From an uncultured bacterium (lineage in GTDB: Bacteria; CALINM01): DNA of 10,649 nucleotides. Below are positions 5,193-9,774 of the stretch, piece after piece. Below the pieces are notes generated by a model. It was not told where the DNA came from and did not search any database. It was given only the letters and a program-made list of their open reading frames with translations. Location of the stretch: NCBI GenBank assembly GCA_938045315.1, contig CALINM010000020.1, forward strand, positions 1-10,649, given 5' to 3'. Positions within the stretch are counted from its first letter, which is position 1, and each line of letters begins with the position of its first letter. Both the position numbers and the translations under genes were made by a program.

Positions 5193-6312
5193 AAGTATTG
5201 ATACATAAATTTACCAATTCATTTAATTTAATATGGAAATCAAAATTTTTTACTGATTGTCTAATCAGGGCTCTATCGTAACTTCTATTTGATAGTTCTA
5301 TGGCATGTATAATTTCATCAACATTTTTTAAATCCCTTATTATATACCCACAGCCATCTTGAATAATTTCGCTACAACCATTTGCAGCGCTGGTAATTGT
5401 AAAAAGACCCATCGCAAGAGCTTCAAGTGTAGCATTTGAAAAGGGATCATATATAGTGGGCAAAATAAAAGCGTCAGCAGCTTGGTAAAAACTAATCACA
5501 TCCTTTCTAGCACCAAAAAATCTAATTCTATCATGAAGTTTTTTATCCCCTGCCAATCTTTTATAAAAATTCTCATTTTTATCCTTACCTACCACGGCAA
5601 GACAATAATTATTATCCATCAAATTTAAAGCATTTATAATAAAACCAAGGCCTTTTCTTTCATATCCACTTCCCACATACAGGAGCCAGAATCTATCATC
5701 CAAGCCAAGTTTATTTCTAATCTCATATTTTTTGTTAATTGAATCATTAAATGGTACTTCAAATTTTTTCCATTCCACACCATTATGCACAACATAAATC
5801 TTATCTCTATCAAAACCATAATAATTTATAAATTCATTCTTAACCATATGGGAGTTGCATATAAGAGCCCTTAACTTCGGATTTTCTAAACTTCTTTTCT
5901 CTATTTTCAACATATGATTATGAAAGGGATTGATCTTGAAACTCAATTTTTTTAAAAAACTAGAAAATTGAGAACGCCTATCTAACCACGATTTATGACA
6001 TCCTCCACCAGCTCTTATGTGAGTTGCAAGGAAAGTCCTGTCCATATCTAAGATAATCTTATAATTTTCAAAATTTTTCATAAAAAACCTGTAACAGTTG
6101 TAACTAAATGTATACAATCTAAGATAGTTATTGAATTTTGCCATAGGTATTTCTATTTTTTTAACATTACTTTCAAACCAGTTTTCTTTGGATGCGGTAA
6201 CTACATCTACATCATAGCCTTTTTCAAAAAAAGCTCTAATAACCGCTCTGGCGTATTTTTCACCACCACCGTATGGCGTGTAATTACTTTTTATAACTGC
6301 TACTCTTTCCAT
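5191..6312 (-). CDS. GT4-type glycosyltransferase, LPS core (WaaG-like)
   Basis: This 373-aa GT-B fold, retaining glycosyltransferase is predicted to add a sugar to the LPS core at the cytoplasmic face of the inner membrane. The N-terminal domain has the acceptor-side glycine loop YGGGEKYA (14-21) and the segment THIRAGGGCHKSWLDRR (97-113), which I recognise from WaaG-like core glycosyltransferases. The donor domain starts near 205, with VGSGYERKG (213-221) and the donor-binding stretch YDPFSNATLEALAMG (288-302). Glu297 and Glu315 (NGCSEII) are the conserved acidic residues. No membrane helix is seen. It is first in a two-gene minus-strand unit with the epimerase. The ATG has no Shine-Dalgarno, and a -10-like TATACA ends 5 bases upstream. 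The exact sugar and acceptor cannot be told from the sequence. Confidence 0.85.
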   Translation of the reverse strand: MERVAVIKSNYTPYGGGEKYARAVIRAFFEKGYDVDVVTASKENWFESNVKKIEIPMAKFNNYLRLYTFSYNCYRFFMKNFENYKIILDMDRTFLATHIRAGGGCHKSWLDRRSQFSSFLKKLSFKINPFHNHMLKIEKRSLENPKLRALICNSHMVKNEFINYYGFDRDKIYVVHNGVEWKKFEVPFNDSINKKYEIRNKLGLDDRFWLLYVGSGYERKGLGFIINALNLMDNNYCLAVVGKDKNENFYKRLAGDKKLHDRIRFFGARKDVISFYQAADAFILPTIYDPFSNATLEALAMGLFTITSAANGCSEIIQDGCGYIIRDLKNVDEIIHAIELSNRSYDRALIRQSVKNFDFHIKLNELVNLCINT

Positions 6313-6316
6313 TTTG

Positions 6317-6345
6317 TTGTATAAAAAATCTCATAGAGTTATAAT
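6317..6345 (+). promoter_or_regulatory. Promoter of the yejM-like gene, placing the start codon at or near +1
   Basis: TTGTAT (6317-6322) and a perfect TATAAT (6340-6345) are separated by exactly 17 bases. The -10 ends 8 bases before the ATG at 6354, so transcription should start on or within about two bases of the start codon. No Shine-Dalgarno exists between them. The whole promoter fits inside the 41-bp gap between two divergent start codons. Confidence 0.6.
6318..6323 (-). promoter_or_regulatory. Candidate -10 of the divergent glycosyltransferase gene
   Basis: The minus strand reads TATACA, five bases before the ATG at 6312. It overlaps the -35 of the opposite promoter. No good -35 is seen at 16-18 bp (AATTAT at 17). 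A short gap and no Shine-Dalgarno imply a leaderless or nearly leaderless mRNA. Confidence 0.35.
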
Positions 6346-6353
6346 TAAAAGCT

Positions 6354-8186
6354 ATGCACTACTTTACAGGAAAAAAAAGACTAAAACAAGTTTTTCTTGC
6401 TTATATTCTAAATACATTGATTTCCCTAATTATTACTATACCATTATTTACTAAAGCAGTATTTGATGCAAAGCTACCTGTAACTTATAGTTTTCTATTG
6501 TTCATCTCCAATGCCTTATGGTTAAATCTACTTGCATCATTGATACCATTATTGCTAAGCCTGTATTTTATCCCTGAAAAAATATTTAAAATTTTCATCA
6601 TCCTCTCTTTCACTCTCCTTCAAGCATTTCTGGTGGCTGATGTAAAAATTTATAGTTACTTCAAGTTTCACATAAATGCCATTGTGATAAACTTCCTTAC
6701 TACCGAAGGTGCAGGAGATTCATTGAAATTAGGCATATCAACGATTCTTCTATTCAGCTTAATCATCATGATAATAATTATTGTTCAAATCTTTATTTTA
6801 AGAAATAAAATTATTAACGCTCAAAAAATACCATCGAGAATAATTATTATCCTGCTCGCAGTTATAATACTCGATAAGTTTACATATGCCTGCGCGGATA
6901 TTAAAAACAGGACTGAAATACTATCTATTGCAAGATTTTATCCCTTTTATCAAAAATTTACAGCCGAGAGATTTTTAACTAAATATCTGGGGATAAAACC
7001 CTCACCTAGGGAAAGCATTAATCTAAACATCACAGGTAAAAATCTTAACTATCCTTTGAAAGAACTAAAATTTGAGAAAATAAAAAAATATAATATACTT
7101 TTCATAGTAGTAGATGGCTTTAGATTTGATATGCTCTCATCAAAAGTTACCCCTTACCTATATCAATTTGGGAAAGAAAACATAATCTTAGAAAACCATT
7201 ACTCGGGAGGAAATGGCACAAGGTTTGGAATCTTTTCTCTAATTTACGGCTTATATGGAAATCTATGGCATGTCTTTCTGGATTCAAGACAGAGTCCGGT
7301 ATTGCTAGACTATTTACAAAGGTTTGATTATGACTTTACAATTTTATCTTCCACAAAACTAAGTTATCCAGAATTTAGAAGTACTGCTTTTGTAAAACTA
7401 CAAGAGTATATCTACGACACCCATACAGAGCCTCTCTCATACAAAAGAGATAAAATTATTACAAACAAATTTAAAGAGTTTTTAAATAGTGCAAAAAAAC
7501 CCTTCTTTGGTTTCATTTTCTATAACTCATCTCATCAATTTTATCAATATCCACCAGAATTTGAAAAATTTAAACCAGTATTAACAGGTAACATAAATTA
7601 CATGAAAAATCTGAATTCTGAAACTATGGAAAAATTAAAGAACAGATATAAAAATTCACTTAATTATATTGATTTCTTAATAAAAGAGATCATAGAATAC
7701 CTTAAATCAAAAAAGATGTTAGACAACACAATTATATTTATTACTGGAGATCATGGTGAAGAATTTAGAGAGACTGGTTTCTTTTCCCATACTTCCGCAT
7801 TTAATGATTATCAGATAAAAACCCCCGGGATAATGCATATACCTAAAATTAAAAATAAAAAAATATCAAAAATTACTAATCACATAGATATTGTTCCAAC
7901 TCTTTTTTCATTGATGGGCTGCCAAAATCCACCCTCAGACTATAGCAATGGTAATGATATATTTTCCGAATATAATAAAGATTATACCTTCTCTTTTAAT
8001 TGGTATGAGGGTTCAATAGTTACTAAGGATTACAGGGTAGTCATACCACTAAAGACCGAAAAAATAAAAATGATAGAAGTTTTCAGAGCAAATGATTATA
8101 AGCAAATAGATGGCAAAGAAAGCATTAAATTATATAACAAACAAATACTTGAGATGGCCGAAGGATTGGGTAGGTTTTTAAGATAA
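6354..8186 (+). CDS. YejM/PbgA-like inner-membrane protein: DUF3413 membrane domain plus periplasmic sulfatase-fold domain
   Basis: This 610-aa protein has about five membrane helices in residues 15-177, followed by a periplasmic alkaline-phosphatase/sulfatase-fold domain from about 245. The segment ADVKIYSYFKFHINAIVIN (95-113) matches the DUF3413 signature, and HYSGGNGTRFGIFSLIYG (282-299) matches the linked sulfatase-like domain. Potential active-site residues are Asp254 (IVVDGFRFD), Thr289 in the nucleophile position, His394, Asp466-His467 (GDHGEE) and His510 (NHIDIVPTL). In enterobacteria, YejM senses periplasmic LPS and controls LpxC turnover through LapB. Other sulfatase-fold membrane proteins transfer phosphoethanolamine or phosphoglycerol. 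Which role applies here is open. Lying among LPS genes supports an envelope function. Its stop overlaps the next gene's start (TAATG). Confidence 0.87.
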   Translation: MHYFTGKKRLKQVFLAYILNTLISLIITIPLFTKAVFDAKLPVTYSFLLFISNALWLNLLASLIPLLLSLYFIPEKIFKIFIILSFTLLQAFLVADVKIYSYFKFHINAIVINFLTTEGAGDSLKLGISTILLFSLIIMIIIIVQIFILRNKIINAQKIPSRIIIILLAVIILDKFTYACADIKNRTEILSIARFYPFYQKFTAERFLTKYLGIKPSPRESINLNITGKNLNYPLKELKFEKIKKYNILFIVVDGFRFDMLSSKVTPYLYQFGKENIILENHYSGGNGTRFGIFSLIYGLYGNLWHVFLDSRQSPVLLDYLQRFDYDFTILSSTKLSYPEFRSTAFVKLQEYIYDTHTEPLSYKRDKIITNKFKEFLNSAKKPFFGFIFYNSSHQFYQYPPEFEKFKPVLTGNINYMKNLNSETMEKLKNRYKNSLNYIDFLIKEIIEYLKSKKMLDNTIIFITGDHGEEFRETGFFSHTSAFNDYQIKTPGIMHIPKIKNKKISKITNHIDIVPTLFSLMGCQNPPSDYSNGNDIFSEYNKDYTFSFNWYEGSIVTKDYRVVIPLKTEKIKMIEVFRANDYKQIDGKESIKLYNKQILEMAEGLGRFLR

Positions 8187-9657: not shown

Positions 9658-9663
9658 AAGATT

Positions 9664-9692
9664 TATATAACAAAAAATTGCAAATAACTCAA
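9664..9692 (-). promoter_or_regulatory. Candidate yajQ promoter giving a leaderless mRNA
   Basis: On the minus strand, TTGAGT (9692-9687) and TATATA (9669-9664) are separated by exactly 17 bases. The -10 ends 6 bases before the ATG at 9657, so +1 would fall at the start codon. No Shine-Dalgarno is present. Confidence 0.5.
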
Positions 9693-9774
9693 GAAAAAGT
9701 GATTATAAAAATCATAGCAGATGATAATAAAGCAAGTTTATCTCTTTACAAAATACAAAGTAATATTAATTTTG

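Follow-up and report, generated by a model that had tools for sequence, protein, structure and literature searches.

A short divergent spacer in an AT-rich bacterial lineage probably carries one near-leaderless promoter, that of a yejM-like gene

The 41-bp spacer between a divergent pair of genes, encoding a glycosyltransferase (GT) and a YejM-like membrane protein, very probably serves as promoter for the yejM-like gene. It holds a sigma-70-type TTGTAT-N17-TATAAT element from which transcription would begin at the ATG or 1-3 nt before it, giving a leaderless message that would be translated without a Shine-Dalgarno (SD) sequence. The minus-strand TATACA (6323-6318), which overlaps the plus-strand -35 by 5 bp, would then be a chance match, and GT, for which no leaderless promoter is recognisable in the spacer, would be transcribed from elsewhere, possibly from a weak site within the start of yejM. 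The features on which this interpretation is based are collected in Table 1.

Table 1. Positions of genes, promoter elements and candidate sites at the GT/yejM-like locus (window coordinates), with the spacer used for comparison
Feature	Position	Strand	Description
GT, GT4 type, 373 aa	5191-6312	-	Pfam PF13439 + PF00534; no SD; no promoter found in spacer
Divergent spacer, GT/yejM-like	6313-6353		TTTGTTGTATAAAAAATCTCATAGAGTTATAATTAAAAGCT, 41 bp
-35 TTGTAT, predicted yejM-like promoter	6317-6322	+	6/6 identical in sister; fits lineage-learned -35 TTGnnn
TATACA, earlier proposed as minus -10, unsupported	6318-6323	-	score -0.02; AATACA (-2.55) in sister
15-bp block around -10	6335-6349	+	AGAGTTATAATTAAA, identical in both genomes
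-10 TATAAT, predicted yejM-like promoter	6340-6345	+	17 bp from -35; last base at -9 from ATG; 6/6 identical in sister
Predicted transcription start zone	6351-6354	+	G6351 to A6354; from the -10 position and the -7 to -10 peak in SD-less genes
YejM-like membrane protein, DUF3413 + sulfatase domain, 610 aa	6354-8186	+	Pfam; best PDB matches YejM/PbgA, E ~5e-31
Weak promoter-like site for GT, tentative	6361-6389	-	TTGTTT 6389-6384, N17, TAAAGT 6366-6361; in yejM codons 3-13
truA/ilvA-like spacer	own L194 (G000:C235, ~2000); sister G001:C161:32040-32081	- (own)	42 bp

The window, by which we mean the whole 10,649-nt stretch of DNA analysed, comes from a 1.86-Mb draft genome made up of 244 contigs, with 32% GC over the 676 kb read. 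An earlier sequence-only reading of this DNA had described the spacer as holding two overlapping promoters, both leaderless, whose mutual exclusion would make GT and the yejM-like gene competing outputs. The spacer, the two start codons (GT at 6312, minus; yejM-like at 6354, plus) and the hexamers are all where that reading placed them, and inspection of the spacer sequence bears out the absence of an SD on either side. Upstream in-frame stops lie close to both genes (TAA at 6342-6344 for yejM; TGA at 6333-6331 for GT, the latter read from the sequence), ruling out earlier in-frame start codons for each.

Comparison with relatives was limited to one same-genus genome (G001, hereafter the sister, also available as JAOABK010000009.1, the MAG 'Proteobacteria bacterium isolate SKW176') and one same-family genome (G002), all others sharing merely the domain. 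Protein and profile searches of the genome contigs recovered only the SKW176 sister MAG and one 26% relative, and the yejM-like gene was not found in the same-family genome, so that conservation of the spacer is a single comparison, with the one sister genome in which the locus is present. There the gene order is kept from the hydrogenase through yajQ, with protein identities of 71% for GT and 70% for the YejM-like protein, and the spacer, TTTATTGTATTAATCACCCTTAAGAGTTATAATTAAAGACT, is likewise exactly 41 bp and identical to our own at 30 of 41 positions without gaps. The identity is unevenly distributed: the -35 and the -10 are each 6/6 identical and the block AGAGTTATAATTAAA 15/15, while the 17-bp interior has 9/17, its first 12 positions (4/12) being at the neutral level set by the fourfold-degenerate sites of the GT and yejM-like genes, which are 39-40% identical between the two genomes. 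At neutral sites the chance of 12/12 would be ~2e-5 and that of 15/15 ~1e-6, for positions that were picked after the fact. Conservation of the hexamers in relatives, suggested as a check in the earlier reading, holds for the plus-strand pair, TTGTAT and TATAAT, at 12 of 12 positions, and fails for the minus-strand TATACA, which has become AATACA in the sister.

How does the lineage start its genes in general? The 16S rRNA of the same-family genome ends in a canonical anti-SD, GGATCACCTCCTTT, and SD motifs show a sharp peak genome-wide at 5-10 nt upstream of starts. Nevertheless many first-in-operon genes lack an SD in both our own and the sister genome, as judged from gene starts that a simple ORF caller assigned in the sequence read, which amounts to 676 kb of the 1.86 Mb of our own genome and 412 kb of the 2.0 Mb of the sister. 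Upstream of these SD-less starts a -10 hexamer peak is seen at 7-9 nt. TATAAT-like hexamers, defined by at most one mismatch, end at -7 to -10 in 26 of 99 SD-less first genes in our own genome, compared with ~6.7 expected from more distant positions, and in 30 of 76 in the sister (~4.5 expected); SD-bearing genes have none at these positions. A two-block promoter model was trained on 162 SD-less upstream regions, with both genes of the locus excluded in both genomes. Seeded with TTGACA/TATAAT, and hence guided, it left the second half of TTGACA and converged on TTGnnn-N17-TATAAT, with the -10 mostly ending at -7 to -10, and about half of the SD-less first genes were assigned to it. Taken together, these upstream regions show near-leaderless transcription, as predicted from promoter position, to be common in the lineage, beside a canonical anti-SD and many SD-led genes. 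The pattern resembles the leaderless genes described by Zheng et al. 2011 (PMC3160421), in which a Pribnow box lies ~10 bp before the start codon, in that a TATAAT-like hexamer stands about 10 bp before SD-less starts with SD-led genes alongside. Those genes were reported from Actinobacteria, Deinococcus-Thermus, delta-Proteobacteria and Aquificae; the present genus, in contrast, is AT-rich (32% GC) and has no close relatives among the genomes compared, and its lineage also has an informative -35 (TTG).

Two other genes of the window have a similar appearance. Neither the rfaE-like gene (2307, plus) nor yajQ (9657, minus) has an SD. Their upstream regions (2271-2306 and 9658-9710, respectively) carry AT-rich, -10-like sequence just before the ATG that is shared in part with the sister (TATATAAGC / TATATAGGC; GTTATATAAATCTT / GCTATATAAAAATT).

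Measured against this background, the yejM-like gene has the sequence features expected of a leaderless sigma-70 gene, namely a -10 at 7-10 nt upstream of the start, a -35 separated from it by 16-18 bp, and no SD even though the lineage uses SD sequences. Under the model its promoter scores 13.1 in our own genome and in the sister alike, which places it at the 98.8th percentile among SD-less first genes; ~0.0007 of shuffles of our own sequence reach this value, and none of 1500 do so for the sister. A TTGnnn-N16..18-TATAAT at leaderless distance would occur by chance with a probability of ~0.0006 at the local base composition. The perfect TATAAT and its -35-like partner on the plus strand are thus beyond chance as well as conserved. 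The gap between TATAAT and the ATG, 8 nt, is slightly above the commonest gap in the lineage. A generic sigma-70 scan listed neither the plus nor the minus site; it demands 4/6 of TTGACA, and the yejM promoter was missed because TTGTAT matches at only 3/6. The proposal that both genes are leaderless is accordingly supported for one of them: for yejM a leader of 0-3 nt is indicated by the pattern across the genome, by the model score and by conservation, whereas for GT the proposal finds no support. A leaderless start for the yejM-like gene, as predicted, has good support and is nothing unusual in a lineage where many first-in-operon genes are arranged this way. The conserved 15-mer itself gives no sign of marking a regulon: neither genome has an exact second copy, and one-mismatch matches are at control level.

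On the minus strand the picture is very different. No -35 partner was found for TATACA, and a 4/6 match to TATAAT in the minus zone is expected in ~77% of random spacers of equal composition. For GT the highest-scoring leaderless site reaches 2.3 in our own genome (shuffle P = 0.42) and 3.5 in the sister (P = 0.26), under a model of sigma-70 type that would not detect promoters of other sigma factors on this strand. The sister has a better minus hexamer, TACAAT, which corresponds to TACAAC in our own genome; it stops just 3 nt short of the ATG, a distance at which the model expects no -10, and has no -35. All conservation seen in the GT direction falls within sequence that belongs to the plus promoter as well. 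Of two overlapping promoters, each conserved on its own strand, the spacer therefore retains only that on the plus strand, the minus site being at chance level and unconserved.

A model of two overlapping, mutually exclusive leaderless promoters is not without parallel. The hexamers are in place, and double promoter-like spacers of similar size occur in the lineage. The spacer has in common with E. coli bidirectional and overlapping divergent promoters (PMC12825309) its very short divergent layout and overlapping hexamers on opposite strands; it differs in that only one direction is supported by score and conservation. The minus site lacks a -35, scores at background and has lost its first T in the sister, and at all five bidirectional promoters tested in E. 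coli basal activity fell short of the level at which polymerases would compete (PMC12825309), implying that even a real second promoter need not mean mutually exclusive outputs. We consider the model highly improbable. Competition between promoters has no basis in the spacer, and the associated LPS/YejM switch is not supported.

Would an overlapping pair have been recognised if it were present? Divergent pairs with spacers below 60 bp are not rare in our own and the sister genome. One of these, between genes identified by eye from their sequences as truA and an ilvA-like gene, has a spacer of the same length in both genomes, identical at 39 of 42 positions. In the sister it gives promoter scores on both strands, the minus -10 overlapping the plus -35, and both promoter-like sites are kept in our own genome. 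This spacer, with a recognisable and conserved promoter-like site on each strand, implies that overlapping architecture is detectable when present in the lineage. Judged by such sites, the overlapping-promoter layout does occur in this lineage and is conserved there, yet the GT/yejM spacer does not show it; the truA/ilvA-like spacer is the better place in which to test overlapping near-leaderless promoters.

From where, then, is GT transcribed? Two leads emerge, neither of them strong. The first, tentatively the better, is the weak conserved site within the first yejM codons (TTGTTT-N17-TAAAGT). GT would then have an SD-less leader of ~42 nt, transcribed in antisense through both the start and the promoter of yejM, and with the two promoters pointing towards one another, interference between them could arise. 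The site scores the same, 6.79, in both genomes, an equally good conserved antisense site is found in only 5.6% of 108 other genes, and third positions in yejM codons 2-17 are conserved at 12 of 15, compared with 57% in other genes. These statistics are borderline, however, the amino acids at the same codons are themselves conserved, and the leader would have no SD, so that we regard this origin as unlikely. An arrangement in which such a promoter faces the leaderless promoter of yejM, simultaneous starts being impossible and each message crossing the other's promoter, is very unlikely.

The second lead is a pseudo-symmetrical bidirectional promoter, in which the core TTATAA of the yejM -10 would also serve the minus strand (TATAAC, 6343-6338), with a GT leader of ~19 nt. 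TTATAA is both palindromic and conserved, and the divergent starts would be ~21-23 bp apart here; among bidirectional promoters, which have been reported from all prokaryotes, 18 bp is the commonest separation and 10 and 23 bp are common (PMC12825309). Against this, the minus hexamer lacks the final T that is present in 94% of cases in the lineage model, it scores only 0.94, and GT would again have a leader without an SD; we think such a shared promoter quite unlikely.

The YejM-like protein deserves separate comment. It has the YejM/PbgA architecture of a DUF3413 membrane part followed by a sulfatase domain, and the nearest solved structures are YejM/PbgA, as the name given to it in the sequence-only reading suggests; its description as a regulator of LPS, on the other hand, is a guess by homology. 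Enterobacterial YejM exerts its control of LpxC turnover through LapB/FtsH. LpxC is present in the genome. A search with a LapB zinc-ribbon marker gave no match in our own genome (92% complete), and its sole hit in the sister was a RadA-like protein; controls that lack LPS matched too. The sister protein reads as RadA by sequence, and we rejected it as LapB. Like YejM/PbgA/LapC, the protein retains the nucleophile threonine, here T289, within a GNGT motif aligned to GNTT of YejM, for which a magnesium-dependent phosphatase activity with Thr302 as nucleophile has been reported (PMC7576196). Unlike them, it has Asp466-His467 at the position of the Gly-Arg pair of YejM, no LapB marker was found in its genome, and it adjoins glycosyltransferases. 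Because the threonine is kept and a DH pair stands where YejM has GR, the protein may be an active metalloenzyme.

We conclude that the proposed regulatory switch between GT and the yejM-like gene loses its basis. What the locus offers instead is a clean contrast, between a GT/yejM spacer that keeps one predicted promoter and a truA/ilvA-like spacer that keeps promoter-like sites on both strands. More generally, conservation shows the near-leaderless layout, as predicted here, to be routine in a sparsely sampled, AT-rich lineage that also uses SD sequences, for which a usable -35/-10 model is now at hand.
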